Made by a program: the position numbers and the translations under genes. From contig JAFGVM010000021.1 in the NCBI GenBank assembly GCA_016937995.1, positions 1 to 37,579 on the forward strand: 37,579 nucleotides of DNA. The letters run 5' to 3'. The stretch comes from Candidatus Delongbacteria bacterium (lineage in GTDB: Bacteria; UBA4055). The notes under the pieces were generated by a model that ran no database searches, was not told the origin of the DNA, and worked only from the letters and a program-made list of their open reading frames with translations. Every line of letters starts with the position of its first letter. Position 1 is the stretch's first letter. Positions 1,530-35,907 of the stretch are shown one piece after another.

Positions 1530-3383
1530 GTGAGAAAGATAATACTGATTTTGCTAATATTTATAGTTGTCAGTTTACAAGCTAACAATAAGGAAGTTAT
1601 AATTGACAAATCAAAGTACAGTAAACATTTAGATGGTGTTTCAATGAATATCTCTACAGGTGAAATTCAAGCTATAAGCGAAGATTTCGAACCTCCGGAA
1701 GGCTTTGAATTGTATGTTGATCCTGCAACAGACGGTATTTTCGATTTCTATGAATTTGATAGCAGCAAAAAGATCCTGTATATAGGTTATGGAACCGATA
1801 TCTTCAAAGACTGGGTAAAATACTTGGAAAAAGGTATATCTTTTAAACAGATGAACAAAAATGAATCGTTAGAGGGGTCTGTAGTATACATAGGCGGACT
1901 AAACGATGCTTGTATCTTGTTCATTAAAGCATACGATAAAAATTCGAGCAGTATGACTCTTATATGGGAGAATGCTGGAAAGTCAACAAATCAAAGTATC
2001 GCAGTTGAGACAACAAATAATGATCCGAATAAAACTAATAATGATATCGTAAAAACAAATGAGAATATTGATGTTCCCACTCAAAATTTTGAAGAAAAAA
2101 ATGAGGAAATACAAAAAACATCACAAATTGAAGAAAATAAAAATATTACAGATGCTCCTGAAAAAAGGACTGAAGAAATAATTATACCTGCGGAACAGGA
2201 GAACAAGAATTCAGATAAAACTTCTCCTATTAAGGTCAAATTAAAGAAACTAATAAATGATAATACTGCAAGTATAAGAAAAGTTTCTGATCCTTCAGGT
2301 AAAGCCTGTGCACTTATAAAAGTAATGACAGATATGAAAAATTTAAACTTTAACTCGGAACATCTTACTAAAGCTTCAAATTACAAGAATGGAGAATATA
2401 AGTTGTATGTTTCAAGTGAGATCAAAGAACTTAATATTACATGGGACTCAAATAATTTCAGATATAATTTTGAAACCCTGTTAGAACAGGAAAATACCTA
2501 CAGAATGACTATAATTCAAAATTATTTTTATCAGCAGACCACAGAAAGTAACAACAATGAAAAAAGTCCAGAACCCATAAAAGCCGATCCAGTTGTAAGC
2601 CAACCTAAAAAATCAAATCCGGATCTGAATTATGTTTATCAACCTGATATTGATATTCCTGATATTGATATGATCTTTGTTAAAGGTGGAAGATTTATCA
2701 TGGGGTCAAACAACAGTTTTGATAATAACAAACCAGAACACGAAGTATATGTCAATGATTTTTACATAAATAAAAATGAGGTAACTCAAAAATTATGGAA
2801 AGCGATATTACCAACTAAACCATTCCATGTAACAGGAGACAATTTTCCGGTAGATGTCGTAAACTGGTACGAAGCTGTTGAATTCTGTAATATTCTGAGT
2901 GAGAAAATGAAATACCAGCAATGTTATATTATAAATAAAAACACCGGCAACGAAAATCAATGGAATGTTATATGTAATTTCGATGCCAACGGTTTCAGAT
3001 TACCGACAGAAGCAGAATGGGAATATGTTGCAAAATACAATAACTTCTCAACTGAAAATATTAATCTGGATGATATTGCATGGTATAAAGACAACTCTCA
3101 GTTCATTTCACATCCTGTAGCAGATAAATCTCCTAATTCTTTAGGTATATACGATCTTTTCGGCAATGTTTCGGAATGGTGCTGGGACTGGTATCTTGAA
3201 GATTGCTATACTCTCGGTGTCAGTGATAATCCTACTGGTCCTGCGTTCGCTGAAACTAAAGTTCTGAGAGGTGGGTCAATGCTTAATACTTCAGATTATG
3301 TGTCCACTATTTCAAGAGAAAATAAATTACCGCATATAAATCAAACCCCTCACGGTTTCAGGCTGGTAAGAAGTAAAAAATAA
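1530..3383 (+). CDS. Secreted FGE/SUMF1-like protein with DKTAQ-type module
   Basis: GTG start at 1530 with AAAGGGG just upstream (1518-1524); 617 residues. A signal peptide (RKIILILLIFIVVSLQA) is followed by an unrecognised ~125-residue domain and a low-complexity Asn/Glu/Thr linker (about 150-230). Residues ~234-330 form a beta module containing 'ASIRKVSDPSGKACALIKV', the same module found at 5989, 8050 and 33832. From ~377 to the end is an FGE-sulfatase (SUMF1-type) domain with the landmarks 'FVKGGRFIMGS', 'NEVTQKLW', 'FPVDVVNWYEAVEFCN', 'GFRLPTEAEWEYVA', 'GNVSEWCWDWY', 'VLRGGS' and 'PHGFRLVRS'. The segment holding the catalytic cysteine pair in true FGE reads 'YVSTISRENKLP' and has no cysteine, so a formylglycine-generating role is unlikely; a binding or scaffold role is inferred. 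Bacteroides SUMF1-family proteins often carry a comparable N-terminal module (known from the family). Confidence 0.85.
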   Translation: MRKIILILLIFIVVSLQANNKEVIIDKSKYSKHLDGVSMNISTGEIQAISEDFEPPEGFELYVDPATDGIFDFYEFDSSKKILYIGYGTDIFKDWVKYLEKGISFKQMNKNESLEGSVVYIGGLNDACILFIKAYDKNSSSMTLIWENAGKSTNQSIAVETTNNDPNKTNNDIVKTNENIDVPTQNFEEKNEEIQKTSQIEENKNITDAPEKRTEEIIIPAEQENKNSDKTSPIKVKLKKLINDNTASIRKVSDPSGKACALIKVMTDMKNLNFNSEHLTKASNYKNGEYKLYVSSEIKELNITWDSNNFRYNFETLLEQENTYRMTIIQNYFYQQTTESNNNEKSPEPIKADPVVSQPKKSNPDLNYVYQPDIDIPDIDMIFVKGGRFIMGSNNSFDNNKPEHEVYVNDFYINKNEVTQKLWKAILPTKPFHVTGDNFPVDVVNWYEAVEFCNILSEKMKYQQCYIINKNTGNENQWNVICNFDANGFRLPTEAEWEYVAKYNNFSTENINLDDIAWYKDNSQFISHPVADKSPNSLGIYDLFGNVSEWCWDWYLEDCYTLGVSDNPTGPAFAETKVLRGGSMLNTSDYVSTISRENKLPHINQTPHGFRLVRSKK

Positions 3384-4498: not shown

Positions 4499-5302
4499 AT
4501 GAGAAACATAACATACGCAGTTTTAATTTTATCTTTTACATTGAATTTATTCGGTAATGTAATTGTTTTAAGAAAACCGCTCAAGTACAACATTCCTAAC
4601 AAATACAATGATTTTACTGTTGCTTCCAAGTCGGAAAGAAGTGAGATGCAGGAATGGCAAGCTTATTGCACATTAGAAGGAGCAGAAACGTTTACTGATC
4701 TGAATTCGCGACGAAAGTTCAAAACTTTAAACTTCTTTGACAAGTTTTACATCTGTGAGGAAGCTGGTGAATATGTTCGACTTTACAAAGCGGATGATTA
4801 TAATAGTAGTAACTTTGAATTAAGCAACGAAGTTGATTACGGTTGGGTACATAAAAAAGATCTGCTTTTATCACATCATTGCTTTGCTACAGATAATAGA
4901 TCGATAAACAAAAAAGCAATGATAGTTAATAGGATAGAGCACTTAAAAGCAAATGACTCAGGCGATAAAGCTAATATTCTTGCTTTTAGAAAAGGCCCCG
5001 GTAACAATTATGAAAACACTGGAAAAGAATCTGCACTTTTTAACTTCTTTTTCATTTATCAAAAAACTATAGTAAGCAATGCCGAGTGGTATCTTCTTGG
5101 TGTATCAGAGAGATTTTCTGATTTTAAGAAAAAGGATATTATCTACGGATGGGTTCCAGGATATAGGATGATAGAATGGGATAATAATGTTGTTTTAGAA
5201 CCAAATTGGGAACCGGAAGCAGTCAATGAAAGAAAAAACGGTATCCAGGCAGCCTTTTTCAACGATCCAATAGCTTTGAAAAAAATATCTAGATACAGGT
5301 GA
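4499..5302 (+). CDS. TssR-like SH3-containing protein, N-terminal part (frameshifted)
   Basis: ATG at 4499 with CAGGAG at 4486-4491; 267 residues as it stands. After a signal peptide (RNITYAVLILSFTLNLFG) come two SH3-like segments. The first has 'KFKTLNFFDKFYICEEAGEYVRLYKAD...DYGWVHKKDLLL' and the second 'AEWYLLGVSERF...IIYGWVPGYRMIEWDNNVVLEPNWEPEAVNER'. This order resembles what I recall of TssR, an accessory protein of the Bacteroidota type VI secretion system (subtype iii). That assignment is from memory and needs a profile search. The frame ends abruptly at TGA 5300-5302 after a run of seven A (5279-5285). The sequence continues in another frame at 5286 as 'YLDTGEIGNDYIW'. Removing one A restores a single ~477-residue protein. 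No T6SS core gene is in the window. Confidence 0.7.
   Translation: MRNITYAVLILSFTLNLFGNVIVLRKPLKYNIPNKYNDFTVASKSERSEMQEWQAYCTLEGAETFTDLNSRRKFKTLNFFDKFYICEEAGEYVRLYKADDYNSSNFELSNEVDYGWVHKKDLLLSHHCFATDNRSINKKAMIVNRIEHLKANDSGDKANILAFRKGPGNNYENTGKESALFNFFFIYQKTIVSNAEWYLLGVSERFSDFKKKDIIYGWVPGYRMIEWDNNVVLEPNWEPEAVNERKNGIQAAFFNDPIALKKISRYR
5279..5285 (+). other. A7 homopolymer at the apparent frameshift
   Basis: Seven consecutive A residues lie exactly where the coding frame moves from the 4499 gene to the downstream frame. With six A the two parts join as 'ALKKYLDTGEIGND'. Homopolymers are common sites of indel error and of transcriptional slippage. Confidence 0.75.
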
Positions 5303-5988: not shown

Positions 5989-7404
5989 ATGAATAAAATA
6001 ATGACTCTGATAGTCATTTTATCTGTGTCAATGATTTTTAGTAAAACATTTCAAGTTACTTCTTTTGCAGAAGATCCCTATGATAAAAGAGCACAGTATA
6101 GAAAAGTTCCGGATATTGACACTAACAAATGTGCTATGTTAAAAGTTGAAACTGATATCAGGGAAATTCAATTTAATTCAAGCGATATAAAACATATTAT
6201 TGACTATTCAATTTCAGAAAAAAATTATAGAATGTATATTCAACAGGGTGTCAATGGCATTAGTTTAAACAAAAGCGGTTATACAACATTTGATTATAAA
6301 TTTCCCGTAAATTTAAGGCCGGGTGTAAGTTATGTAATGCGGTTGGCAGAATCTGAATATGATAATACTTTTAATAGTCAGATATATACAACAACCGAGT
6401 ATAAACCGAAACCAGTCAAAGAAGAAAGGTTTGTATACGGCAATATCTCAGGTGTCGTAAAAGATGCATACAGTGGGAGTACTATTGATGACGTTAGTAT
6501 TATTATTAAAAAATCATCTACAATATTAAAACGAACTAACAATATTTCGAATGGTACTTTTAAAGTTGAATTGCCAGAGTATTATGATTATACAGCAGTA
6601 TTTCAAAAAGATGGATATCAAGCAGTTGAGTATCACAATATATCCGTAGAAGGTAATAGAATATCAAAACTTGAACCGATACTGCAGATAGACGAGAAAT
6701 ATTCAGGAAAAGGTCATATTGCAGGATATATATTTAATTCGATCAATAATGAACCGGTCATGGATGCGGAGATAAAGGTCAGAAAAGGAGTTAATACATT
6801 TACAGGAACAGTATTATACACTGCTAAAACTGATGCTGACGGTAATTACTATGTGAAAAATGTTGCTTCGGGCAACTATACGATAGAAGTGGGTAAAGAA
6901 GGTTACAGTGATTCCTGGTTTACTATAATATCGCTTGGTGGTGAGACGATTATTAATCAGAACACTACAATGTTACCTGATCTGGATGACGTACAGATCA
7001 GAGTAGTACTTACATGGGGAGATTCTCCAAGAGATCTTGATGCACACCTATTTGGTCCTGAAATGTTTCATATTTCCTGTAAAAAAAATAAATCTATTCA
7101 ATCCGGGGAAGTATCTGCAGAACTGGATTTTGATGATACTTATATGTATGGACCGGAAACAATTACAATTCATAAAAAATCCACAGAATCGTATGAATAC
7201 GTTGTTCAGGATTATACTAACAGAAAGAACAGTGACTCAAAATCCCTTTCAAATTCAGGTGCTAAAGTAAGAGTATACAGAGGACAAAATCTGCTTAAAA
7301 CTTTTTTTGTTCCAATGGGGAAATACGGCAATACTTGGAATGTATTTAAAATGCAGGATAGTAAGATAGTTCCAATTAACGAATTGACTAATGAAAAACA
7401 ATAG
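5989..7404 (+). CDS. Secreted protein with two carboxypeptidase-regulatory-like domains and a YfaP/DUF2135-like domain
   Basis: ATG at 5989 with AAAGGA upstream; 471 residues. Signal peptide (NKIMTLIVILSVSMIFS), then the recurring module (residues ~20-125: 'FQVTSFAEDPYDKRAQYRK', 'NKCAMLKVETD', 'YRMYIQQGV', 'FDYKFPVNLRPGVSYVMRL'). Two carboxypeptidase-regulatory-like beta-sandwiches follow: ~150-234 ('GVVKDAYSGSTIDDVSI') and ~242-332 ('GYIFNSINNEPVMDAEI...TDADGNYYVKNV'). Residues ~334-465 match the YfaP/DUF2135 pattern: 'VVLTWGDSPRDLDAHLFGP', 'LDFDDTYMYGPETITI', 'YEYVVQDYTNR', 'LSNSGAKVRVY' and 'WNVFKM'. Proteins with this last domain are usually secreted and of unknown function. The lipoprotein gene at 7414 follows by 9 nt, so the two are very likely co-translated. 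A periplasmic or surface scaffold is inferred. Confidence 0.8.
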   Translation: MNKIMTLIVILSVSMIFSKTFQVTSFAEDPYDKRAQYRKVPDIDTNKCAMLKVETDIREIQFNSSDIKHIIDYSISEKNYRMYIQQGVNGISLNKSGYTTFDYKFPVNLRPGVSYVMRLAESEYDNTFNSQIYTTTEYKPKPVKEERFVYGNISGVVKDAYSGSTIDDVSIIIKKSSTILKRTNNISNGTFKVELPEYYDYTAVFQKDGYQAVEYHNISVEGNRISKLEPILQIDEKYSGKGHIAGYIFNSINNEPVMDAEIKVRKGVNTFTGTVLYTAKTDADGNYYVKNVASGNYTIEVGKEGYSDSWFTIISLGGETIINQNTTMLPDLDDVQIRVVLTWGDSPRDLDAHLFGPEMFHISCKKNKSIQSGEVSAELDFDDTYMYGPETITIHKKSTESYEYVVQDYTNRKNSDSKSLSNSGAKVRVYRGQNLLKTFFVPMGKYGNTWNVFKMQDSKIVPINELTNEKQ

Positions 7405-7413
7405 GAGAATAGT

Positions 7414-7995
7414 ATGAATAATAAAAAACCAACCGGTTCAAAAATAAAATTAATAGCTTTGAGTGTGATAATTTCATCTTTATTGATATCTTGTAGTTCC
7501 TATAAACATGTTACACGTCAGATAATAACTGAGTATCAGTTAGATACTAATGACAATCTTGAACGGGTTCAATATTATGTTGATGAACCGTTTTATCTAA
7601 TTAGAAGCGAAAAAATAATAGAAAGAGAGATAGATGCAAATTTAGAACTAACCAGACGTGTGCATGAAGAAACATTGCAGATTGATAAGGATACACCCGG
7701 AGTTGCTGTAAAAGGTGGAGAAGATTATATCGTTATTGATTTTGGAGAGGATATATTCTGTACATTCAAATTAGTTACAGGCATTGATGATGATAGAGAC
7801 AAATATCGCTTATCTCTGATCAATTCTGAGGATGTACGATATGGTAAGTTTCAAATAAAAGGAAAAAAATATAAAGTATTTTTTCCAAAAATGGAAAAAG
7901 GCAAACGTGTTATTCCTTTATTAAAATTCCATGAGAGCTCAACTGATTATAGCTCTAAGGATGTAAAGAAAATAAAAGGTAAAACGTTGCGATAA
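7414..7995 (+). CDS. Small lipoprotein, family not recognised
   Basis: ATG at 7414 with TAGGAG upstream; 193 residues. The N-terminus 'KIKLIALSVIISSLLISCSS' is a lipoprotein signal with lipobox LLISC, so the protein is probably anchored through Cys27. The mature part is rich in charged residues and short beta strands ('DYIVIDFGEDIFCTFKLV', 'RYGKFQIKGKKYKVFFP') and ends in a Lys-rich tail. It lies 9 nt after the YfaP-like gene, which suggests partnership with that product. I know no family for it. Confidence 0.75.
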   Translation: MNNKKPTGSKIKLIALSVIISSLLISCSSYKHVTRQIITEYQLDTNDNLERVQYYVDEPFYLIRSEKIIEREIDANLELTRRVHEETLQIDKDTPGVAVKGGEDYIVIDFGEDIFCTFKLVTGIDDDRDKYRLSLINSEDVRYGKFQIKGKKYKVFFPKMEKGKRVIPLLKFHESSTDYSSKDVKKIKGKTLR

Positions 7996-8049: not shown

Positions 8050-9459
8050 ATGAAGAGAATAACAATAATTTTGGTCCTTTCGTTCTTTTGGAATTTGAAT
8101 TGTGCTACGTTTCAAGTAACATCATTTAAGGAAAATCATGGTGATAAAACTGCGCAGTTAAGACCCGTAAAAGATAAAAATAATAACAAATGTGCTTTGA
8201 TCAAGATAAATACAAATTTGAAATACATAAATTTTATTTCTAATCAAATAGTTAAATCCGGAAATTTTTCTGAAAATCAATATAAGATCTATGTTGAGGA
8301 AGGAATCAAAAACATTACATTAAAAAAAATTGGCTATGATCTATTGGATTATACTTTTCCTCAAAAGATAAAAGCAGGCATAGTTTATACACTTAATCTT
8401 GATAAAAATGAATTTGGTAACAATGGTTTCAACCCTGAAGGTTTTGACATTGAAGGATATGACAGAGATGGATACGATAAAAACGGGTACAACAAAGAAG
8501 GATTTAACAGAGAAGGTTTTAGCCGTGATGGATTTGATAGAGATGGGTACGATAAAACCGGATTCAACAGGGAAGGATTTAACAGAGAGGGTTACACTAA
8601 AGAGGGCATAAATTCTTTCTTAATTCCTGAACAAAGTCAAAATAAAAAGAAATATGATCCAGCAGGTTATGACAAAGATGGTTATGATAAAGACGGGTAT
8701 GATAGAGATGGTTATGACAAATATGGCTTTGACAAAGATGGATACGGCAGAGAAGGTTATGACAAAGACGGTTATAATTTGTACGGTTTTGATAGAAATA
8801 ATTTTAATAAATATGGCTACGACAAGTATGGTTACGATCATTCAGGTTTTGACCAACAGGGCTTCAGTAAAGATGGATATGATAAAAAAGGTTACGATAG
8901 GCAGGATTATGATAGAGACGGTTTTAATAAAGATGGTTATGACAGGTACGGATATGACGTTTATGGATATGACAAAAGGGGTTATAATATTGACGGCTAC
9001 AACCCGAACAAACCTATAAAAATGTGTTTGTCCGTAGAAAGTGCATTTCCTTTAGGTAAATTTGAAGATAACAGTGGAGAAGGTTACGGCATTTTCCTGA
9101 AAACATTTTATTCTCTTAATGGGTATTCTAGTGTCAGTTTAAAAGTCGGGTATTCATATTTTACTACTTCAAGAAACGTTCCTGATGACTGGACTGTAAA
9201 TTATATGCAGTCACCTTTAATGTTGGGATACAGGATTAAATTTACAAATAATATGTTTACAGAAGGTGAACTTGGAGTGAACTGGATCGGTGCAGTTATT
9301 GAAAATAAATTAGAAAACGCAGTATATGTTTCATATTCACAAGGAATAGGTTATAAATATCATGATCTTGAGTTTGCTGTAGGCTTCAATTCTATATTCA
9401 GCAATATTGAAAAAGGTGCATATCAGGCAGTTATTGGTCTTGGATATTATATATATTAG
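8050..9459 (+). CDS. Outer-membrane barrel-like protein with 36 GYD-type pentapeptide repeats
   Basis: ATG at 8050; 469 residues. Signal peptide (MKRITIILVLSFFWNLNC) followed by the recurring module, residues ~20-117 ('FQVTSFKENHGDKTAQLRP', 'NKCALIKINTN', 'LDYTFPQKIKAGIVYTLNL'). Residues 124-188 hold 13 five-residue units and 204-318 hold 23 more, consensus (K/R)(D/E)G(Y/F)(D/N), split by a 15-residue spacer ending 'QNKKKYD'. Residues ~325-469 read like an eight-strand type outer-membrane barrel ('MCLSVESAFPLGKFEDN', 'VSLKVGYSYFTTSRN', 'SPLMLGYRIKF', 'MFTEGELGVNWIG', final 'YQAVIGLGYYIY'). A Cys at residue 18 could make it a lipoprotein, but the preceding 'NLN' is a poor lipobox. The Asp/Gly-rich repeat may bind calcium or form an extended stalk between the module and the barrel; this is inference. 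The stop is TAG. Confidence 0.8.
   Translation: MKRITIILVLSFFWNLNCATFQVTSFKENHGDKTAQLRPVKDKNNNKCALIKINTNLKYINFISNQIVKSGNFSENQYKIYVEEGIKNITLKKIGYDLLDYTFPQKIKAGIVYTLNLDKNEFGNNGFNPEGFDIEGYDRDGYDKNGYNKEGFNREGFSRDGFDRDGYDKTGFNREGFNREGYTKEGINSFLIPEQSQNKKKYDPAGYDKDGYDKDGYDRDGYDKYGFDKDGYGREGYDKDGYNLYGFDRNNFNKYGYDKYGYDHSGFDQQGFSKDGYDKKGYDRQDYDRDGFNKDGYDRYGYDVYGYDKRGYNIDGYNPNKPIKMCLSVESAFPLGKFEDNSGEGYGIFLKTFYSLNGYSSVSLKVGYSYFTTSRNVPDDWTVNYMQSPLMLGYRIKFTNNMFTEGELGVNWIGAVIENKLENAVYVSYSQGIGYKYHDLEFAVGFNSIFSNIEKGAYQAVIGLGYYIY
8419..8613 (+). repeat. First 15-bp coding repeat array (13 units)
   Basis: Thirteen units of 15 nt encode pentapeptides such as NNGFN, PEGFD, IEGYD, RDGYD, KEGFN, REGYT and KEGIN. 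Gly at position 3 is invariant, and position 4 is Tyr or Phe in all but the last unit. The units differ at the DNA level, so this is an old, drifting array. Confidence 0.9.
8659..9003 (+). repeat. Second 15-bp coding repeat array (23 units)
   Basis: Twenty-three units of 15 nt run from PAGYD to IDGYN. The best-conserved stretch is near 8659-8790 (KDGYD, KDGYD, RDGYD, KYGFD). Two units lack the central Gly (RNNFN, RQDYD). The array is separated from the first by 45 nt coding a Lys/Gln-rich spacer. Confidence 0.9.
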
Positions 9460-13084: not shown

Positions 13085-14464
13085 ATGAGAAAGTTTTCAA
13101 GTATTCAATTGATCTTTATGGTTTTTATTCTGTTTGGATCAATTTTAAACCTATTTGGGCAATATGACGCTCAGATAAATAGTATTTATACATCACCGTC
13201 AGGGACAATTTATGAAGGAGACACAAAAACCATATACTCTAATATAACAAATTTATCAGACCCCGATGGTCCCTATGGTGGTGCATGTACATTCCATATC
13301 AGATTTCGAGTATATAATCTTGATACTTTTACTTCGAATGATTATTGGGCAACACAAAGTTTTTCAAATGGGCAAACCATAACAGTTTCTGGATCAAGTT
13401 TCACTTTTGATCCGAGTGGTCGTTATGCTATAGGTGTTGACGTTATGAACGTGCCTGAAGATACTACGTACGATTCAGATGAAATATATTTTACAGTTGA
13501 AGGTCCTCAAAAATGTGATCTACATGTTGTCGATATATGGACAGTACCAGCAAATCCAGTAGCAGGAGAAGAAGTAGATTTGCATTGCGAGATAGAAAAT
13601 ATTGGGGATGTTACTTCCGAAAGTTATAGTATACAATATAAAATCGGATCTATAGTAGTAGGAACAGATAGCGCATCCCCTCTAGCAGTTGGTTCAAATG
13701 ACGATAGTGAATATTATAGCAATTATACTTTTACGTCTTCAGGTTCTTTTTCATATCAAGTAACAGTATATGATTGTAGCAATGAATCTTATACTATAAA
13801 TAATTCAAAGTTAGAAACTGTTAACGTTTCAGAACCACCTCCACCGGACATTGATGTTATAAATATATGGACAGAACCATCTACACCTATAGCTGGTGAA
13901 ATCTGTAATTTATATGTTCAAGTAACAAATGTAGGAGAAGGTGATGCAGAAAATATTTACTTTAGGTATTATATTGATGGATCTCAAGTTGGAACTGATA
14001 TAGATAGTTATTTGAGTTCAGGAGGTACACAAACTGAAAGTATGAGTTATACATTCCCAATCTCTGGTGATTATATTTTCAAATTATCTGTAGATCAATG
14101 TGATGGTGAAACCGCTACAGTCAACAATTCTGAAACAATTACTGTTAGTGTAGGAGAGGTTAGTATTGATAATAACAATATCATTAAAACAACTTCACTT
14201 CATCAGAATTACCCTAATCCATTCAATCCTGAAACAACAATTTCTTTTGATCTTGCGGAAAGATCGAATGTCGCTATAAACGTTTATAACTCAAAAGGAG
14301 AGCTTGTTAGAAATCTCTTGAATAAACAGCATGAAATGGGTAGTTATTCTGTTGTATGGAATGGAAAAAATGATCAGAGAGCAAAAGTTGATACAGGTAT
14401 GTACTATGTAAAACTAGAAACAGATGATAGTTCTCATATGGTCAAAGCTTTGTTAATTAAGTAA
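13085..14464 (+). CDS. CARDB-domain protein with T9SS type A sorting domain
   Basis: ATG at 13085 with a strong GGGAGGAAGG upstream; 459 residues. The signal peptide (RKFSSIQLIFMVFILFGSILNLFGQ) is closely related to those of the next two ORFs. A first beta domain (~26-140) starts 'YDAQINSIYTSPSGTIYEGD'. Two CARDB domains follow: ~142-247 ('DLHVVDIWTVPANPVAGEEVDL') and ~257-355 ('DIDVINIWTEPSTPIAGEICNL', ending 'QCDGETATVNNSETITV'). Residues ~372-459 are a T9SS type A sorting domain: 'NYPNPFNPETTISFDL', 'VAINVYNSKGELVRNL', 'GSYSVVWNGKND' and 'GMYYVKLETD'. By family knowledge this domain directs export across the outer membrane and attachment or release by the Por system. No Por machinery gene is in the window. 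The second CARDB is close to the first CARDB of the giant gene at 14820, so the two are paralogous cassettes. Confidence 0.9.
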   Translation: MRKFSSIQLIFMVFILFGSILNLFGQYDAQINSIYTSPSGTIYEGDTKTIYSNITNLSDPDGPYGGACTFHIRFRVYNLDTFTSNDYWATQSFSNGQTITVSGSSFTFDPSGRYAIGVDVMNVPEDTTYDSDEIYFTVEGPQKCDLHVVDIWTVPANPVAGEEVDLHCEIENIGDVTSESYSIQYKIGSIVVGTDSASPLAVGSNDDSEYYSNYTFTSSGSFSYQVTVYDCSNESYTINNSKLETVNVSEPPPPDIDVINIWTEPSTPIAGEICNLYVQVTNVGEGDAENIYFRYYIDGSQVGTDIDSYLSSGGTQTESMSYTFPISGDYIFKLSVDQCDGETATVNNSETITVSVGEVSIDNNNIIKTTSLHQNYPNPFNPETTISFDLAERSNVAINVYNSKGELVRNLLNKQHEMGSYSVVWNGKNDQRAKVDTGMYYVKLETDDSSHMVKALLIK

Positions 14465-20800: not shown

Positions 20801-23123
20801 GAATTTTGCGTCAAAAAATCTTTACGAATCAGACAATATGTTCATTAAAATTAAAAACTTACTGAACACTAACACAACAGAGACTGTTACTCTGAAAAAT
20901 AAACGAACAAATGAGCAGACAGTTGTTGATCTGAGAAAAGTGGATAAGTATGACTATATCGGTCAATTCGATCTATCTTATCAGGCAAAATCAGAATTAT
21001 CTGTTACGGATGGTGATACTATACTTGCTTCGTACATTTATGATTCTCAAACATATGAAACATACTCTATTTATGATTCAAAAGTACAGCCTACAGATGT
21101 AACTGCACCTTCGATGATAAATGATCTATCTGTTAAGAAATTATCAGATAATAAAGTATTACTCAAATGGACTGCAACTGGAGATGACGGAAATACCGGT
21201 GAAGCGTTATATTATGATATAAGATATAGTTATACTGCTCTCGCTAATGAAGATGATTATTTGGTTTCGATACCAATTGAACACTCAAGATACCCTTCAC
21301 TTGCAGGGACAACAGATTCATTAATAGTTGATTTGTATGATATAGATAATTCAGTTACGAATGATCAGATCTATTTTTCTATCAAATCAGAAGATGAAAT
21401 GCAGAATAGAAGTGAGTTAAGTAATACTGCTTCAGTTAATTACCTAATAAATGCTTTAGAGGTCTCAGCTGAACTGAATGATATACATAATGTTGATCTG
21501 TCATGGATCGGACCATCAAAAGATTCAAAAGATAGCACAGATTTTAGGTATTATAAAATATTTAGAAAAGACAGTATTGGAACATTTAAATTCTTAACAG
21601 ATACGGTCACTGTTCCAAGTTACTCTGAGTCATTAAAAAATTATCCTGATAATGAGTATCAGTACCTGATCCAGGGTGTTTACGAAACAGGTAATACAGA
21701 CAGTCTATACTCAAATACGATATCTCTTGATAGATATGAGAACGTTACAATTTTATGTACACTGAATGATACAATAGATTATTCAGGTATAAATATGACT
21801 ATCACAGGTTCTCAACCTAGTGATTATTATCAGTCATTTAATAAAACTACAAATGCTCTTGGACTGATAGTATTAAGCGATGTTTATAAAACAGATTACT
21901 TCGTTGAAATATCAAAAGACGGTTACTTTACAATAATTGATACAATCAAAGTTAACGATAGTAGCAATAAATTCAACTGGAAGGTCGTTAGCACCGCATT
22001 AGCAGCGCCTTCACCAGGTTTTCCTGAAAACAATAGTTATATAACTGACGTCGCACCTGAATTTGACTGGAATGATATTGCTTATGCAAAAGAGTATAAT
22101 TTGTTAGTAGATAACGATAGTACATTTAACTCTCCGGAAATTTACGATAGTGTCGCTGTAAGTAATTATAATTGTGTAGCCAATCTTGCAGATGGAACAC
22201 ACTTCTGGAAAGTAAAAGCTAAGAATAATCCTTATGAAAGTGTTTATTCAACGGTATCTAAATTCACAATTGGTAAAGCTCCAATACCACCTAAATTAAG
22301 CATACCGGTAAACAGCAGTGCAATGGCAGACCTAACACCTGAGTTTGACTGGACCGATATCTCCACAGCTACCAGTTATCAGATAATTGTTGACGATAAC
22401 TCAGATTTTAGTTCACCAGAGATTGATACCACATCTACAGTAAGCAATTTTACACCAGTAACTGAACTTGGATATGAAAAATATTACTGGAAAACATTGG
22501 CTGTGAACGAATTCGGAGAAAGCCCCTATACTGCAACTTGGGAATTTGAACTAGGAAAAGCCCCAGCGGTTACTAAGTTATATTCTCCAGCTAGCAGCGA
22601 ATATATAGATACACAGAGACCTGAATTTGACTGGTCGGATGTAGCAAATGCTGCTGGTTACAGAATACTTGTTGATAACGATAGTACTTTCAGTTCTCCT
22701 GAAGTTGATGAAAATACTACAGAAAGTATCCTTACACCAATTAATGATCTGGCATTCGGACAATACTTCTGGAAAGCTCTTGCAAGCAATCGCTACGGTG
22801 AAAGTGAATTCACAGAACCTTGGGCATTTACTATAGAAGAACCTCTAGATGCTCCTGTTAATGTTGTTACAAGTATTTCAGGAAGCACTCTTACTCTTGA
22901 CTGGGATGCAGTTAATAACGCAACATATTATCTAGTCTATGCATCTGATGATCCTTATGGAGAATTTACACTAACGTCTATGGTAACAACAAATTCATAT
23001 AATGTAGATGTTAGCGTTGCTAAATTGTTCTATTACATAGTTGCAAGTAATAATCAGTTGGCAAAAGAACACGGACAACAAAATACAATTAAATTTGAAA
23101 ATAATGGTACAGAGGGGAAATAA
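14820..23123 (+). CDS. Giant 2767-residue secreted modular protein
   Basis: ATG at 14820. A signal peptide (KKCNGVQFMLILVLLIGSFWNAWGQ) is followed by an N-terminal beta domain. Three CARDB domains lie at ~200-302, 304-421 and 520-640; the last two share 'AGIYFGYEPYARDS'-like and 'ESNDNNNI' motifs. They alternate with Ig-like domains (~424-518, ~642-738; 'F.P.TPL..L..E.V.F'). Then come a putative-Ig (He_PIG) domain (~951-1038) and a carboxypeptidase-regulatory-like domain (~1040-1124). A ~480-residue region (~1125-1607) matches no family I know. After it: a 'SPSGKIYNN...NPESGSWEF' domain (~1617-1700), Fn3 domains, a second He_PIG (~1899-1986), another regulatory-like domain, three 'DWND' Fn3-like repeats (~2397-2675) and a final Fn3 (~2676-2764, 'LTLDWDAVNNATYYLVYASDDPYGEF'). 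There is no T9SS sorting domain. The stop overlaps the next start (TAATG). It is likely a surface fibre or adhesin; the ligand is unknown. Confidence 0.85.
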   Translation: MKKCNGVQFMLILVLLIGSFWNAWGQDTRAAQAYVKEVDVNGASIKSIGYAEVDPNSTVTVRINVENNATISSFSGYADCVLWFVDKDLSFINSIWSEFETCVPYDVGDEKWNINYQEPRPISEVSIEATSTYLLPNADRDLEVTFTAPSSGSVYFLVRATFSNEDWSLQSEDPSSYTGYYDDQGYKVYRYRIDVVQPPPDIKVLSIWTEPSPPVAGVSCELYVEVENIGDGTATSVDFTYYIDNSEVQTDYDSSISPDEIHEEHDPYTFSSSGSYTYKVVVDQCDGEIVTSNNSKTMTVNVVDPPDLQVDNVSLLNHSCFAGDDITVYFYAWNKGGSTSPPSQAGIYFGYEPYARDSEKLYTVNIDALQDNDAESYSATFTIPESIDLNYSWVSVFIDDDNVVYESNDNNNIGTVEFELSGKRPPVVSSFTPATPLNVLTNETVNFTVNVTDEDGDLFYIYWYLDFMPMTQFDTPISGSSGSSSFEEQGFVTGDHTIRAMIQDKYGNQIDQIWNVTASPPPPDLYVSSIYVDPYYAYAGNELKVYFTIINSGDGSSPTTQAGVYFGYEKYARDSQPLATVDITPLSWGNDSEDYLATFTIPEGIDPNYDWVNVYVDFDNTIPESNDNNNIDGEEFDLKLVNDPIINSFSPSTPLEILESEAVTFEIDIYDSDGDLTNLRWWQDGWPMTLSDKELSGTNGSGIHEVDWFPAGNHDVRAVVYDGFGNTVEQNWAITSYPAGDLEVTVLNPSGVLCTDGTEVYLKKDGEAISPPIETIEGKVKYTGIPATTYDMIRVLKPNSNSDYAEYWGDKGPITVPGNETFKRYMPYITGVLVTDLNNEQQEVPFIEGEDIKVRVEVTNDDVISHLVKVKNIIDRNKDLTYDFNETSTEISIGAKSSKFIDFIFSNATIGEYYVRPINTFSDSPYPTDFTLTDTYAWLDTPSFSVVDAPPALTLAPIGNQTGTPGDPLYFTIRATGGTENFTYSTSELPGTSYFNPVSQLFNWTNPIAGVYDNVSFYVNDGVNTVSESITITITEEGNLSIVQGNVTDVDTSQPVDDCSVIITGEEYSSSVLTDVNGFYLFENVPNDFYKVNTKKSGYEIGNETLNITTTDTYDVNFSIKYAGVNSLDFSNNNELTIYATDITEIGTTNVFNLSGNVNINNILYFEGDVTVDKSANFDLNELSAACPIYVQTDTGNKYIFDNSVSKKFYIDGNNLISFSSLFILDYEYKVSGFNMKMPALSIDPGGNSVTINLIPSLPAPFNKIVEWESLLPIDDNPYVLIKEGLEMYDMKKIFNKDGLDDYEFNLNLSQNFKAFDIKDFSLSYNTSTELFAGSFDLKIPGSLTGSKDESNSFNDLPVEIHDADNNLIGTTSFENFVSAYEKSGKLFLGIKFEIEFINGKIDRLKVRLYDVKIPIANTGLNITAIEGEVAGLTDNMKIGAHVDIETGLEIIGHPVVGLTDFGVEIQPMNYLKGEGDFEIFEYPAASGKLQFDGDKKSLEAEGVLNLFDILVGKLSTSLKWMDFQGKGNMTLKTPSDYPWYLGWLIWSFGGPDTILGQVDTRIHNFEMSSMVTLWDWLSVAQKVEFAPLDGFPYFHYHLGTNYEDLYQIFKGTRGGKQIINFQVPENSSQLFAVVTNETNLFDIQLTSPSGKIYNNTYDQYLQVSDANQTVVFISNPESGSWEFSTDQTGDIQFKSMLQNQRPVTLINNPLTKGTRSNLINIDFTDYSDTLSVDVYYDTDNKHFDGSFIKHFDLINNASLQFDWANSDINNGEYYIYTVISDSHNSPVCQYAPGSIIVNNWYADPPQNLIVQQESDSVKVVWDENFDTNIFATKVFIRNISDGFIDEICVTDLNMAYIKDLEYGREYEIWAKHMNIDMLMTEKSNVSNLIFQSFGKGNNIPYFTMDTDSVFEFVEGQYREYSFLANDADGQGLIFDIVDRPTGMIFNGDKFNWTPQEDQKGAYNLLVTVTDGIDTDSLYQEFSVYSDEQAQVVLNFASKNLYESDNMFIKIKNLLNTNTTETVTLKNKRTNEQTVVDLRKVDKYDYIGQFDLSYQAKSELSVTDGDTILASYIYDSQTYETYSIYDSKVQPTDVTAPSMINDLSVKKLSDNKVLLKWTATGDDGNTGEALYYDIRYSYTALANEDDYLVSIPIEHSRYPSLAGTTDSLIVDLYDIDNSVTNDQIYFSIKSEDEMQNRSELSNTASVNYLINALEVSAELNDIHNVDLSWIGPSKDSKDSTDFRYYKIFRKDSIGTFKFLTDTVTVPSYSESLKNYPDNEYQYLIQGVYETGNTDSLYSNTISLDRYENVTILCTLNDTIDYSGINMTITGSQPSDYYQSFNKTTNALGLIVLSDVYKTDYFVEISKDGYFTIIDTIKVNDSSNKFNWKVVSTALAAPSPGFPENNSYITDVAPEFDWNDIAYAKEYNLLVDNDSTFNSPEIYDSVAVSNYNCVANLADGTHFWKVKAKNNPYESVYSTVSKFTIGKAPIPPKLSIPVNSSAMADLTPEFDWTDISTATSYQIIVDDNSDFSSPEIDTTSTVSNFTPVTELGYEKYYWKTLAVNEFGESPYTATWEFELGKAPAVTKLYSPASSEYIDTQRPEFDWSDVANAAGYRILVDNDSTFSSPEVDENTTESILTPINDLAFGQYFWKALASNRYGESEFTEPWAFTIEEPLDAPVNVVTSISGSTLTLDWDAVNNATYYLVYASDDPYGEFTLTSMVTTNSYNVDVSVAKLFYYIVASNNQLAKEHGQQNTIKFENNGTEGK
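22008..22845 (+). repeat. Three Fn3-like 'DWND' repeats in the giant gene
   Basis: Three ~280-bp units encode 'PEFDWNDIAYAKEYNLLVDN', 'PEFDWTDISTATSYQIIVDD' and 'PEFDWSDVANAAGYRILVDN', each followed by 'FWKV.A' or 'YWKTLA'-type strands. They are the same family as the repeats at 11516-12355 and 25090-25660. Confidence 0.8.
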
Positions 23124-25966
23124 TGAAAAAGTATATAACTGATAAATTGTCCGTACTTGTCATAATAATTCTAACAGCCTTTCCCCTTTTCTATACAATC
23201 CATGCACAGGAGTCTAACGATTCACCCGAAGGTGCACATGCAATAACCTGTCCTTACAATGGACTCGATACTCTATCATTTGAAGGTGATATCGACTGGT
23301 ACAGGATCGACCTTGCAGACAGTACTGAATACGTGATCAGTGTATATGCTGCTCCTCTGGATACATATATTTATCTCTACGGACCCGGAAGCGCAGATGG
23401 ACAACTGACAGGCAACCTCGTTGACTCTGATGATGAAACCAATTCTCCAGACCCTCAGATAACATACACTACAATTGAACCGGGATACTATTATTTAAAA
23501 ATTGCTGAATATGGGGTTTTCAAAGGAACAGGAGAATATACACTTGATGTAAGAGAAAGTGCTGCTCCTTCTAATTTTATCACTGTTACTTCTCCGAACG
23601 GTAGTGAAAACTGGTCAATAGGATCTGAGCAAACAATAACCTGGACCTCAGATATTATCGGTGATGTAAAGATTGATCTGCATAAAGATCATCAGTTCAT
23701 GGATGAGCTGGTTGTTATGAGCAATACTGAGATTTATACCTGGACAATTGACTCTACTTATACAGTTGCGGATGATTATTCGATCAAAATATCAGGTGTA
23801 ACCGATCCTGCAGTTGCAGATTCAAGTGATAGTTTTTTCAGTATTACTGACGGGAATGATGACCCTACTGAAGCTACCATAGTTGCTGTTCCCCATTTAG
23901 AGACTTACAAAATAAACATTGACGGTGATATTGACTGGTACAGAGTTTTACTTGACTCAGGAAAAGAATATAAAATCGCTATCAGCGACTCTCCTGTAGA
24001 TACTTATGCCTATTTATACGGACCCGGAACTGAAGATGGATCCAGCACCGGTCCGGTAGTAGATGAGGACGATGATTCGAATGGTGGGATAAATCCATTA
24101 ATAGTTCTCACTCCAGCCGATAGTGGATACTATTATTTAAGACTGGCACAAGTATCATTCAAATCAGAAAAAGGATCGAAAGATACTGGTGTATATACGT
24201 TGAAGATAGCTGAAAATGACATTACTCCACCAGCTATTGTTTCGACAGTTCCAACGACTGATTCACTGGGTGTAGCGATTGGATCTAACATCACTATTAA
24301 ATTCGATGAGGATATGGACAATACTACAATAAATACTTCAACTGTGACCATGTATGCCGGTACAACACAGATAGACGGTACTGTATCATACATGGATTCT
24401 ATCGCAACATTTGATCCTGATGCTGACCTGGAGTACAACACATTGTATACTATGTCTGTAAGTACCGGAGCGGCTGACCTGGAAGGAAATTCAATTACTT
24501 CTGACTATATATGGAGTTTTACAACAGAAAATGAGCCTTTATACATTGAATTAACCGCTCCAAACGGTGGGGAAAGCTGGGTTGTTGAAGATACTGAAAG
24601 GATCTCCTGGAATTCAAATATAACAGACAGTATTATAATTAACCTGTACAAAGCATCCGTGTTTTCAGAAAAAATAGCGACTGTATCAAATACAGATTTC
24701 TATGACTGGGCTATTCCGTTATCCATTACAGCAGCAGATGATTATTCCATTAAGATCACAAGTAAAACTGATTCAACACTTTTCGATGACAGTGATAGTA
24801 ATTTTATTATATTAGAGAGTGCAAACTTGACTTTAACTTCACCTTCAGGTGGAGAAAAGTGGGGAACCGGAACAACTCAAAGCATTACATGGACCACTAA
24901 TATTTCTGATCCGGTTAAAGTTGAATTATTTACCGGACTGATCTTTACAGATGAGCTGGCGATTACAAGCGGTACAGATAATTATTCCTGGGAAATATCA
25001 GAATATACAGAACCGAGAAGTGATTATACTATTAAGATCAGCAGTATTTTAGATCCAGCTCTTTCAGATTCAAGTGATGCATTTACAATATTTGTAACAC
25101 CTGAAGTTCCGGTTCTGATAAATCCTGCTGACAGTTTAATTACAGCAGATCAGACACCTTATTTTAATTGGACTGATAACTCAGATGCAGTTAAGTGGTA
25201 TTTGCTTGTTGATGATAATTCAGATTTTAACAGTCCCGAGATAAATGATTCTACAACTACAAATTCTTTTACACCATCAAGCGATCTTCCATTTAATGTC
25301 TATTACTGGAAAGTAAAAGCTGCGAACGATGAGAGCGAAAGTGAGTGGTCTGATACAAGGATGCTCACAATACTCTCGTTGCCAGATACTCCGGCTTTGA
25401 TATCTCCTGGTGACGGAGTATCTACGCATGTAAGAGAGCCGTATTTTGATTGGGCAGTTGTTACAAATTCAACTGGATATAACATCACGATCGATGATGC
25501 TGCCACATTTGATTCTCCTTTGATAGATGAACCGGTTTCAGCTAATAATTATACTACCGTTATCAGCTTATCAGACGGTACTTACTATTGGAAAGTAAGA
25601 GCAAAAAACGAGGTTGGTTATGGTTCCTTCAGCTCTATATGGTCATTCATTATAGACACCTCCTCAATTGACGAGTTAAACTTACCGCTATCAACACAGC
25701 TGTATCAGAATTACCCGAATCCGTTCAACCCTGAAACAACTGTATCATTTGATCTGGCAGATCAGAGTAAAGTGAATATAAGTATATTCAGTTACAGTGG
25801 TGAATTAGTAAGAACACTCGTAAATGACACCAGAGATGCAGGAAATTATACAGTAACCTGGAATGGGAAAAATAATAAAGGCTCTTTGGTTGCAGCAGGT
25901 ATGTATTTTGTAGTAATGAAAACAGAAAACTACAGAAAAGTAATAAAAGCGGTAATGGTGAAATAA
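23123..25966 (+). CDS. T9SS-sorted multidomain surface protein (PPC, KNH, Ig-like, Fn3-like)
   Basis: ATG at 23123 shares one base with the giant gene's TAA, and GAGGGGAAA lies before it, so translation is probably coupled. 947 residues. Signal peptide (KKYITDKLSVLVIIILTAFPLFYTIHAQ). Modules: PPC (~30-150, 'GDIDWYRIDLADSTEY', 'GYYYLKIAEYG'); KNH-like (~152-245, 'SPNGSENWSIGSEQTITWTSD'); second PPC (~246-370); SbsA/Big_5-type Ig-like (~372-473, 'STVPTTDSLGVAIGSNITIK', 'F.EDMD..TINTSTV'); two more KNH-like domains (~476-660, 'APNGGESWVVEDTERISWNSN'); two Fn3-like 'YYWKV' domains (~664-853). The T9SS type A sorting domain (~860-947) has 'NYPNPFNPETTVSFDL', 'VNISIFSYSGELVRTL', 'GNYTVTWNGKNN' and 'GMYFVVMKTENY'. 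A surface partner of the giant protein is inferred from the coupling. Confidence 0.9.
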   Translation: MKKYITDKLSVLVIIILTAFPLFYTIHAQESNDSPEGAHAITCPYNGLDTLSFEGDIDWYRIDLADSTEYVISVYAAPLDTYIYLYGPGSADGQLTGNLVDSDDETNSPDPQITYTTIEPGYYYLKIAEYGVFKGTGEYTLDVRESAAPSNFITVTSPNGSENWSIGSEQTITWTSDIIGDVKIDLHKDHQFMDELVVMSNTEIYTWTIDSTYTVADDYSIKISGVTDPAVADSSDSFFSITDGNDDPTEATIVAVPHLETYKINIDGDIDWYRVLLDSGKEYKIAISDSPVDTYAYLYGPGTEDGSSTGPVVDEDDDSNGGINPLIVLTPADSGYYYLRLAQVSFKSEKGSKDTGVYTLKIAENDITPPAIVSTVPTTDSLGVAIGSNITIKFDEDMDNTTINTSTVTMYAGTTQIDGTVSYMDSIATFDPDADLEYNTLYTMSVSTGAADLEGNSITSDYIWSFTTENEPLYIELTAPNGGESWVVEDTERISWNSNITDSIIINLYKASVFSEKIATVSNTDFYDWAIPLSITAADDYSIKITSKTDSTLFDDSDSNFIILESANLTLTSPSGGEKWGTGTTQSITWTTNISDPVKVELFTGLIFTDELAITSGTDNYSWEISEYTEPRSDYTIKISSILDPALSDSSDAFTIFVTPEVPVLINPADSLITADQTPYFNWTDNSDAVKWYLLVDDNSDFNSPEINDSTTTNSFTPSSDLPFNVYYWKVKAANDESESEWSDTRMLTILSLPDTPALISPGDGVSTHVREPYFDWAVVTNSTGYNITIDDAATFDSPLIDEPVSANNYTTVISLSDGTYYWKVRAKNEVGYGSFSSIWSFIIDTSSIDELNLPLSTQLYQNYPNPFNPETTVSFDLADQSKVNISIFSYSGELVRTLVNDTRDAGNYTVTWNGKNNKGSLVAAGMYFVVMKTENYRKVIKAVMVK

Positions 25967-30282: not shown

Positions 30283-30384
30283 GTTACTATAAAATTTAAA
30301 AAATAGCAGATCCGACAAATGGCATCCATGGATCCTATTCCTGTATGTAATAGAGACATAAACAATAGAATTGAAAAGTACTAT

Positions 30385-30410
30385 AGAAGTATTACACTAG
30401 AAATACTTCT
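30385..30410 (+). promoter_or_regulatory. Hairpin in the 180-nt leader of the 30463 gene
   Basis: AGAAGTATT (30385-30393) and AATACTTCT (30402-30409 plus 30410) form a perfect 9-bp stem with an 8-nt loop. No T-run follows directly, so it is not a typical terminator. It lies ~50 nt before the start codon, in the longest gap of the right block, and could affect transcription or mRNA stability. Confidence 0.4.
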
Positions 30411-30462
30411 TATTCTAATACATTTTGTCATTATTAATATATTTTGTAAAAGGTGGGAAAAA

Positions 30463-33831: not shown

Positions 33832-35907
33832 GTGAAAAGTATTATTATTTTTATTATACTATCTGTCTCATTATTGTTTGCCAAAGAATTTCAAATATCG
33901 TCATTTTTGTTAGCTCCAAATGATAAAACAGCACAGATAAGATCAATGTTTGATGATAATGGCAACAAGTGTGCTGTTATTAAATTTACGACAAAAATAC
34001 CAGGAATAGATTTTGTTTCATCAAAAATAAAGAATAATGGTAAATTCCTTAGAAATGAATATAGAATCTATGTTCAGGAAAATATTAAAGAGATTACAAT
34101 TAGAAAAAATGGATTTCAACCGTTTAACTATCAATTTGATTCACCCCTAATATCTGGAAATACTTATGAGGCAATACTGGAAGAAAAGAATGTTAACCGT
34201 GGTATTCCAGCTGTAACAAAAGTCGAAGAAAAAAAGATAGATGATGTTTCAGAGGAAACTATTTCATATATTTCGCCAGCAAAAGAAATTAATGAAGTAG
34301 ACAGCAAATTATTTACTACTGATGATATCAAGGTCAGTAATATTAAACTAATTTCAGACAAAGCTGTTGTTAAAGAACCATTTTATTTAACTGCAGGCGA
34401 TAATAATGGGAATATTGATGCAGGAGAGCAGATAAATTTGGGAATTTCATTGAAAGCTGTTATTGGTGATTTTATTAGTGCTTCTGTAAAATTCAATAGT
34501 GATGATGAATATCTGAAAATTAAAACAAAAAAAATAAATTTTAACGATATTAGCCAAGGTGCAAGTATTCAAGGAAATAATCCATTAATAGTTGAGATAA
34601 ATCCAGAATGTCCTCATGAACATAAAATTGTTATAAATCTAAAGATATACGATTCAAATAAAAAAGATAATTCAAACCGGTATCTTGTTTTCAAAGATAG
34701 TATTAAGTTAACTGTAAGTAAGGTTGGACCTATTGAATTCAGTGGAGCAATAATTGATGATGATGATATAGGGCAAAGTGAAGGTAACGGGAATCAGATA
34801 ATAGAAAAATCTGATGGCGATATTGAAATTCCGCTTGTATTAAAGAATCGTGGAAAGGCTGATGTAAGTAATGCTGAAGTTAAGCTGACTTCACAGGAAC
34901 GATGGATAAACATATCTGAAAATGTAAAAACATACAGCAACATCCCTGCTGCGAGTGAAGGTGGTACACCTGCAGATTATGTTTTTAAACTGCATAGCTC
35001 AGCTCCTTCTTATTCGGTGCCATTTGTTCCGATGAGATTAAGGATAACAGGATTTTACGGACCCTATAAATATAACTGGATCCATGATTTCAAATTGGGT
35101 AAGTTTTTCGGGAAACTTAATATAACTGTAAATCCATCTGACGCAGAAATTTATGTTAATAATGAATTTCGTAATTCAGGAAGTTTGAATGAGAAAAAAC
35201 CGATTGATGATTACAAAATAAAAATTTCAAAGTATGGTTATATAGATGAAGAATTTGAAATTCCTGTTAAAGAAGATAAAACAACTTATGTTGAAGTCAA
35301 TTTAGGAGAAAAATTAAATAAGGGAAAAGATTTGAAATCATTTTCTGAATATAATTACGGTTATGATTATAATTTGAAAAAATATACATGGCAAGATTTT
35401 TATGAAGAACCATATAAATTAAAAGAGAACCGTAAATCTTATACATGTAAAAATATGTATATAGTGCTTGGCTCACTGTGTGTTTTACCGGGAATAATGT
35501 CTCAGGGAGATGAAGAAGAAGATCAGAGACAAATTGGTGTGGGAGCTATCGTAATTGGAATTGGGTTATACTTATATAGCTTCATTGATGATCATTCGTA
35601 TAAGCCCGTTCCGATTTCTTATAACATAGACAAAAATAGAGAAAAGGAAGAAATTGCAAAAAGAAAAGCCGAAGCAAAAGCAAAAAGCAAGAACGATATG
35701 ATTGCATTAGAGAAGGAACAAAAAATTGCTGAAGGAAAAAGAAAGATTTATGATGAAAATGAAAAAATCAAGAAAGAAAATAAATCTATAGAGATCAGGA
35801 ATAAGTTATCTATCAAGAAACGGGAAGTAAAGTATAAAATTGATAATGGATATTTTAATGATATTACACCAAAAATAAATGAATCTTCATCTTCGATATA
35901 CAAATAA
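33832..35907 (+). CDS. PEGA-domain envelope protein with DKTAQ-type module and C-terminal coiled coil
   Basis: GTG at 33832, 6 nt after AGGAG (33821-33825); 691 residues. Signal peptide (KSIIIFIILSVSLLFA). The recurring module lies at ~18-125: 'FQISSFLLAPNDKTAQIRS', 'NKCAVIKFTTK', 'YRIYVQENIKEITIRKNGF' and 'FNYQFDSPLISGNTYEAIL'. Two beta-sandwiches of the 'DNNGNIDAGEQINLGISLKA' / 'GNGNQIIEKSDGDIEIPLVLK' type follow (~185-420), like those that bear NEW3/CARDB-like domains. A PEGA domain is at ~426-495 ('GKLNITVNPSDAEIYVNNEF', 'YKIKISKYGYIDEEFEIPV'). Two hydrophobic segments (~543-557 and ~567-586, 'IGVGAIVIGIGLYLYSFI') suggest an inner-membrane hairpin. The Lys/Glu-rich tail (~603-670) is a likely coiled coil. 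It could link the inner membrane to the envelope products of the block. The next gene's ATG follows the TAA with no gap. Confidence 0.8.
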   Translation: MKSIIIFIILSVSLLFAKEFQISSFLLAPNDKTAQIRSMFDDNGNKCAVIKFTTKIPGIDFVSSKIKNNGKFLRNEYRIYVQENIKEITIRKNGFQPFNYQFDSPLISGNTYEAILEEKNVNRGIPAVTKVEEKKIDDVSEETISYISPAKEINEVDSKLFTTDDIKVSNIKLISDKAVVKEPFYLTAGDNNGNIDAGEQINLGISLKAVIGDFISASVKFNSDDEYLKIKTKKINFNDISQGASIQGNNPLIVEINPECPHEHKIVINLKIYDSNKKDNSNRYLVFKDSIKLTVSKVGPIEFSGAIIDDDDIGQSEGNGNQIIEKSDGDIEIPLVLKNRGKADVSNAEVKLTSQERWINISENVKTYSNIPAASEGGTPADYVFKLHSSAPSYSVPFVPMRLRITGFYGPYKYNWIHDFKLGKFFGKLNITVNPSDAEIYVNNEFRNSGSLNEKKPIDDYKIKISKYGYIDEEFEIPVKEDKTTYVEVNLGEKLNKGKDLKSFSEYNYGYDYNLKKYTWQDFYEEPYKLKENRKSYTCKNMYIVLGSLCVLPGIMSQGDEEEDQRQIGVGAIVIGIGLYLYSFIDDHSYKPVPISYNIDKNREKEEIAKRKAEAKAKSKNDMIALEKEQKIAEGKRKIYDENEKIKKENKSIEIRNKLSIKKREVKYKIDNGYFNDITPKINESSSSIYK

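Follow-up and report, generated by a model that had tools for sequence, protein, structure and literature searches.

A GYD-type pentapeptide array between a beta module and an outer-membrane barrel in a Candidatus Delongbacteria protein: a candidate periplasmic spacer

Proteins built of tandem five-residue units are known from the PF00805 family, which includes Qnr, MfpA and HglK and for which the consensus (A/C/S/V/T/L/I)(D/N/S/K/E/I/R)(L/F)(S/T/R/E/Q/K/V/D)(G/D/E/N/R/Q/K) has been given (PMC8145042). Penta-peptide repeats are also found in Legionella DotG (IcmE), and tomography, as cited in PMC7511231, had suggested that their place is the stalk in the periplasm. Other described systems with which the present locus is compared are the RTX and thrombospondin-3 (TSP3) calcium-binding repeats and the outer-membrane proteins OmpA, OmpX and OprF.

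We consider here a stretch of 37,579 nucleotides from a Candidatus Delongbacteria bacterium (contig JAFGVM010000021.1; "the window" below means the whole of this stretch), in which an ORF of 469 aa on the forward strand (8050-9459) holds, in frame, an array of pentapeptides that we call GYD units. The parts of this protein, and two further ORFs of the window that share its N-terminal module, are as follows:

8050-8106, forward strand, aa 1-19: signal peptide of the Sec type without canonical lipobox, MKRITIILVLSFFWNLNCA (by eye on the translation)
8107-8412, forward strand, aa ~19/20-121: N-terminal beta module (paralogs, family profile, AF2)
8425-8619, forward strand, aa 126-190: GYD array 1, 13 units with the consensus G[YF][DN][KR][DE] (translation, periodicity)
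8620-8649, forward strand, aa 191-200: break LIPEQSQNKK, ten residues or two slots (LIPEQ SQNKK), through which the five-residue phase is kept (periodicity)
8650-9009, forward strand, aa 201-320: GYD array 2, 24 units, which matches unrelated arrays elsewhere (translation, periodicity, searches)
9016-9456, forward strand, aa 323-469: predicted C-terminal 8-stranded outer-membrane beta-barrel (AF2, Foldseek, homologs)
5989-7404, forward strand: upstream ORF in which the N-terminal module is joined to carboxypeptidase-regulatory-like domains and not to a GYD array (Pfam, sequence search)
33832-35907, forward strand: paralog in which a PEGA domain accompanies the N-terminal module (Pfam, sequence search)

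An earlier note, made from the DNA alone, had set the repeat between a beta module, taken as periplasmic, and a probable outer-membrane barrel; this anatomy is borne out by the AF2 model and by Foldseek. We think it reasonably probable that the protein consists of a periplasmic GYD arm on an outer-membrane anchor, the arm being a length-tunable spacer that holds the beta module.

The period of five residues, already described as strict, is evident from the lag-5 residue identity of aa 122-322, which is 0.454, compared with 0.111 on average and 0.194 at most among 10,000 shuffled versions; the values at lags of 10, 15 and 20 are likewise high, and those that are not multiples of five give ~0.10 or below. 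The array occupies 39 in-phase slots (aa 126-320, nt 8425-9009), 35 of them canonical, or 36-37 if the degenerate GINSF and KYDPA are counted, and the 13 and 23 units counted previously, with their coordinates, were correct to within one unit (13 and 24 here). Position 1 is G in 34 of the 39 slots, position 2 is aromatic in 36 (Y 23, F 13), position 3 is D or N in 34 (D 22, N 12) and position 4 is K or R in 28 (K 16, R 12), position 5 being filled by D in 12 slots, E in 8 and Y in 6. The regular Asp of the earlier description holds as well, and the aromatic residue that it called invariant is nearly, not strictly, so. On the DNA, TRF detects the arrays with periods of 15, 45, 60, 75 and 90 bp (63-82% matches), and the periods of 45-90 bp suggest that the array grew by multi-unit duplications.

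Selection was estimated by pairwise comparison (pN/pS) of the 35 canonical units within this one array. Synonymous change has reached saturation (pS 0.89 over the whole unit, 0.96 for the G[YF][DN] core), but the amino acids of the core are conserved (pN 0.19, pN/pS 0.19); constraint is looser at the other two, variable positions of the unit (ratio 0.61). Given this saturation and the low ratio in the core, the array is old and has been kept for its amino-acid sequence, and its five-residue period is under purifying selection rather than the product of fresh slippage.

With the PF00805 proteins the array shares tandem five-residue units, an aromatic or hydrophobic residue at every fifth position and a high copy number, the 39 slots being well over the eight contiguous units expected of that family. 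By contrast, PF00805 proteins need a small or hydrophobic residue two positions before the aromatic (i-2, with L/F at i), where the GYD array has D/E/Y/N/K/Q, with Y/F at i. The whole protein matches no Pfam family at E<=1, PF00805, RTX and TSP3 included, and the arrays of Nitrosopumilus and Endomicrobium match none at E<=0.1. As regards the right-handed quadrilateral beta-helix, the AF2 model of a homologous array has no match in the PDB at E<=10, where many PF00805-type structures are deposited, AF2 being doubtful on repeats. Six representative array strings (e.g. DGYDKDGY and GYDRDGYD) are absent from the 5.39 million open papers searched.

The array is not covered by any family of Pfam, NCBIfam or PHROG; DotG/IcmE is the only weak NCBIfam match of the window protein (E 0.016), an Endomicrobium array giving 2.8e-5 with the same family, and a profile built from the arrays of Nitrosopumilus aligns with residues 555-728 of the solved L. 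pneumophila IcmE (E 7e-13). Both the DotG/IcmE stalk and the GYD array are made of tandem five-residue units with a G-aromatic core, as a long segment of an envelope protein that crosses the periplasm. They differ in that the Legionella protein has its G-F/Y pair every 10 residues, with A/L-rich units between, whereas the pair recurs every 5 residues in the GYD array, together with D/N-K/R-D/E. Moreover, neither a secretion-system context nor, by Pfam, the TrbI/VirB10 C-terminal domain and inner-membrane helix of DotG/IcmE is present in the window protein; domain and helix are both present in a gammaproteobacterial GYD protein described below (L039). The match is one between compositionally biased repeats and may be convergent; on our reading, the GYD class is related to the DotG stalk in use and perhaps, at a distance, in sequence.

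In the AF2 model of the window protein, pLDDT within the array reaches 60-90 only at aa 206-230 and 280-320, is 30-45 at aa 122-200 and 241-279, and stays below 50 in the remainder. A homologous array, that of Nitrosopumilus (14 sequences), was modelled by AF2 with a mean pLDDT of 88 (~95 at residues 141-230), a pTM of 0.45 and hardly any helix or strand; at its start, DSSP has the first Y-D pairs bridging the Y-D of the next unit across a three-residue L-D-G loop. This model has no PDB match at E<=10, and among viral models it has no significant one. For perfect repeats, AF2 is documented to return solenoids that are unrealistic despite high confidence (PMC11795689), and we do not take a GYD fold, the solenoid suggested earlier included, as established.

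A disordered polyampholyte linker, that is a flexible tether without fixed fold in which the period reflects composition and past duplication, would agree with the low pLDDT over most of the array in its own model and with its high G, D, N and K content and mixed charge, and the same AF2 bias discounts the pLDDT of 95 of the Nitrosopumilus array (PMC11795689). We nevertheless regard such a linker as rather unlikely, for the phase is strict over 39 slots and kept through the break, G, Y/F and D/N are strongly constrained despite saturated synonymous change, the five-residue grammar is common to proteins of unrelated phyla, and an aromatic at every fifth residue would be needless in a purely flexible linker. 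The earlier note had named disorder together with a period not conserved in homologues as the outcome that would count against it; the period is in fact kept in unrelated proteins of many phyla.

D/N, K/R and D/N/E followed by G are the residue preferences of a type I turn with a G1 bulge, and the Y-D-K-D-G-Y unit agrees with them; the Y-D bridges of the Nitrosopumilus model are also compatible with such a turn. An idealised backbone of repeated type I + G1 turns, built with assumed angles as a geometric estimate and not as a structure, makes a clash-free helix with a rise of 2-6.5 (median 4.4) angstrom per unit; 39 units would then span ~8-25 nm, the order of a periplasm. The GYD arm would probably be a compact spiral or ribbon of repeating turns, held by stacked Tyr/Phe and Lys/Arg-Asp pairs, and not a random coil. 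Only tentatively, and with more doubt than confidence, we propose that GYD is a distinct, undescribed repeat class, with a type I turn and G1 bulge in each unit and a spiral unlike the quadrilateral beta-helix, which would serve as a genetically length-tunable ruler or strut in the place of the DotG-type or calcium-type repeats of other envelope proteins.

The array is absent from the other genomes of the family that were examined (0/12 in one search and 0/11 in another), no ortholog with an array was found among them, and a sequence search of the source genome gave no second array beyond ORF 8050-9459; the neighbouring ORF 7414-7995 is private to the source genome among the family genomes compared. 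When 386 bacterial genomes were queried with the array, the source genome and five others were returned, three of these being true after removal of two loci (L103 and L104) that really carry GTD/Pro-Gly-Thr-Asp repeats. A scan of the genomes of 84,980 species gave 59 loci, in Nitrosopumilus and other Thaumarchaeota, Clostridia, Nocardia, Elusimicrobia/Endomicrobium, Fusobacteria, Campylobacterota, Planctomycetes, Burkholderiales, Gammaproteobacteria and others. Six further matches came from viral contigs, of which four (L090-L092 and L095) look true and two (L093/L094) have a short run only, and Gordonia plasmids may carry further arrays. Matches in an Acinetobacter phage and a Lactococcus plasmid were weak (19-37% identity) and were not counted as GYD arrays, and the "GYDK-rich" shell protein of Mytilus owes its name to a composition label only (PMC4517812).

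Across 1,821 units from 74 proteins, the unit reads G, then Y (71%) or F (23%), D (62%) or N (29%), K (46%) or R (21%), and D (31%), N (18%), E (12%) or K (11%); the mean charge of the related arrays is ~-0.2 per unit and many units are acid-poor. A longer variant unit, G[I/F/N]HxxTGTx[Y/F]Dxx, recurs in ~15 of these 74, which come from archaea, Clostridia, Planctomycetes and Fusobacteria, and this recurrence argues for common descent or transfer over pure convergence.

In several other proteins GYD units take the place of a linker or spacer. A gammaproteobacterial DotG/IcmE homolog (L039:2641-4416; NCBIfam DotG E 4e-96) has them as a periplasmic repeat segment between the N-terminal inner-membrane helix and the TrbI/VirB10 domain; in L065 they are followed by a peptidoglycan-binding OmpA domain, in L105, a lipoprotein, they lie between the anchor and an ice-binding-like domain, and in L071 between a TPR-containing region at the N-terminus and an Lcl_C domain. 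These four precedents of linker-like use support the extended spacer, one of the roles offered in the earlier note and the best functional reading of the array. Another context joins a J-domain, GYD units and DUF6273.

Further arrangements were observed as well. Two loci of a Clostridiales Family XIII bacterium have, in order, a J-domain, a GYD array and a likely membrane helix. In Cetobacterium (L081:1435-3543), a PelG exopolysaccharide exporter runs in frame into a GYD-bearing C-terminal extension, and one viral contig (L090) has a GYD array in each of three neighbouring paralogs, the N-terminal part being without Pfam match in the one copy scanned.

Other proteins are made of GYD units almost throughout. 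The 14 all-GYD sequences of the Nitrosopumilaceae, 61-83% identical to the first row of the set, represent a conserved protein of ~250 aa, composed of MGLFDKFxKTFDK and ~45 GYD units, that lacks an evident signal peptide and is not flanked by conserved genes; the genes near these arrays vary among genomes and indicate no function. Endomicrobium agile, with a genome of 1.3 Mb, has at least five paralogs (at six loci) that are nearly all GYD units and bear a signal peptide or a lipobox. Neither the Nitrosopumilus proteins nor the Endomicrobium lipoproteins have a far domain to hold out, which is the main difficulty for a spacer and keeps an interaction role alive: the repeat may itself act by binding or condensing.

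In an adhesive or interaction array, spaced Tyr/Phe, Asp and Lys/Arg would bind a ligand (peptidoglycan, a glycan or the array itself) by avidity. Such a role, to which we give a low though real probability, would suit not only the stand-alone arrays just described but also aromatic and acidic residues at fixed spacing, and an aromatic kept where positions 4 and 5 drift. However, no homology to binding domains was found by Pfam, NCBIfam or sequence search, and contexts that range from the cytoplasm to the envelope argue against one shared ligand.

Calcium binding by a repeat of the RTX or thrombospondin-3 sort, which the earlier note had also put forward, we consider very unlikely. Many units do carry Asp as their third residue and Asp/Glu as their fifth, and D-x-D-G strings resemble calcium loops, but the unit holds no D-x-D-x-D-G loop, the array is near balance with 33 K/R against 44 D/E, and many related arrays are near neutral with K at position 5; neither an RTX or TSP3 profile match in Pfam (E<=1) nor the acidic calcium-loop units of these families are present.

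The C-terminal barrel is predicted by AF2 with exactly eight strands (324-335, 345-355, 360-372, 384-397, 402-417, 420-437, 440-450 and 457-468), antiparallel and of the OmpX/OmpA fold, and Foldseek against the PDB returned OmpX (1qj9, E 1.8e-6, TMt 0.68), OmpA (1qjp, TMt 0.74) and OprF (4rlc, TMt 0.71), and also Ail, NspA and OmpW, the best E-values for the OmpA, OmpX and OprF barrels being 1e-6 to 1e-4 with TMt 0.6-0.74. By eye, the protein has the hydrophobic signal-like N-terminus and the C-terminal aromatic of this type, ending in ...GLGYYIY. It differs from OmpA and OprF in having its periplasmic part N-terminal (GYD arm and beta module) and no C-terminal OmpA peptidoglycan domain. OmpA/OmpX-type barrels have both termini on the periplasmic side. 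Of the connections in the barrel model, those after strands 1, 3 and 7 are the longer ones (9, 11 and 6 residues), with the strand 5-6 hairpin the longest, and short turns follow strands 2, 4 and 6 (4, 4 and 2 residues), as expected of OmpA/OmpX with a periplasmic N-terminus. An 8-stranded barrel of this type would place the array and the N-terminal module in the periplasm and not at the surface, which speaks against the surface exposure that had been suggested. Least probable of all is a type V autotransporter-like passenger, with module and array exported through the barrel to the surface, since beyond the order of the parts (N-terminal passenger, C-terminal barrel) the model has 8 strands against the 12 of the translocator and no pore for a passenger, and NalP (1uyn; E 2.7e-3, TMt 0.25) fits far worse than OmpX, OmpA and OprF.

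The N-terminal module is all-beta in AF2 (pLDDT ~90) and has no Pfam match. A sequence search of the genome gave paralogs 31-40% identical to it, in the window in ORFs 5989-7404 and 33832-35907 and internally in 1530-3383; the signal peptides of the paralogs end in FSK or FAK. Several further genomes of the family have the module too, usually ahead of PEGA and FGE-sulfatase domains; these proteins resemble the GYD protein in the module (25-38% identity) and differ from it in their PEGA and sulfatase-modifying-factor-like domains and in having neither GYD array nor barrel. As barrel-only homologs with their own signal peptides are found in two genomes of the family (G005 and G011), module, array and barrel are separable parts.

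Elsewhere in the window, 1530-3383 and 30319-33273 encode two FGE-sulfatase (SUMF1-like) proteins. A protein with a TssR N-terminal barrel domain (Pfam E 2e-11), of a family linked to Bacteroidota type VI secretion, is encoded at 4499-5302 in the same gene run, and two large secreted proteins (13085-14464 and 23123-25966) have a C-terminal FlgD-Ig/Por-secretion-tail-like domain (NPFNPETT...), which suggests a type IX-like sorting signal.

In the spacer reading that we prefer, the 8-stranded OmpX/OmpA-type barrel would sit in the outer membrane and the ~195-residue GYD arm would hold the beta module at its end, in the periplasm. The number of units would set the length of the arm, so that the module could reach a candidate partner, which may be peptidoglycan, an inner-membrane protein or another envelope protein. 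The array may have been inserted into, or assembled within, a pre-existing repertoire of modules and barrels of this lineage.

Barrels of this type are known, and so is the use of repeats as spacers; the GYD class itself is undescribed in the libraries and literature searched and departs from PF00805 in profile and consensus. Proteins of unrelated phyla from two domains of life share its grammar (G-aromatic-Asx-basic-polar), as do viral contigs, yet it has no Pfam family and its model resembles no solved structure. If GYD does not fold, it would be a clear natural case for measuring the repeat bias of AF2. If it folds, it would be a new repeat architecture, and a very compact one, as well as an adjustable spacer ready for use, and the outer-membrane protein described here and the DotG homolog L039 would be two envelope systems suited to testing it as such.
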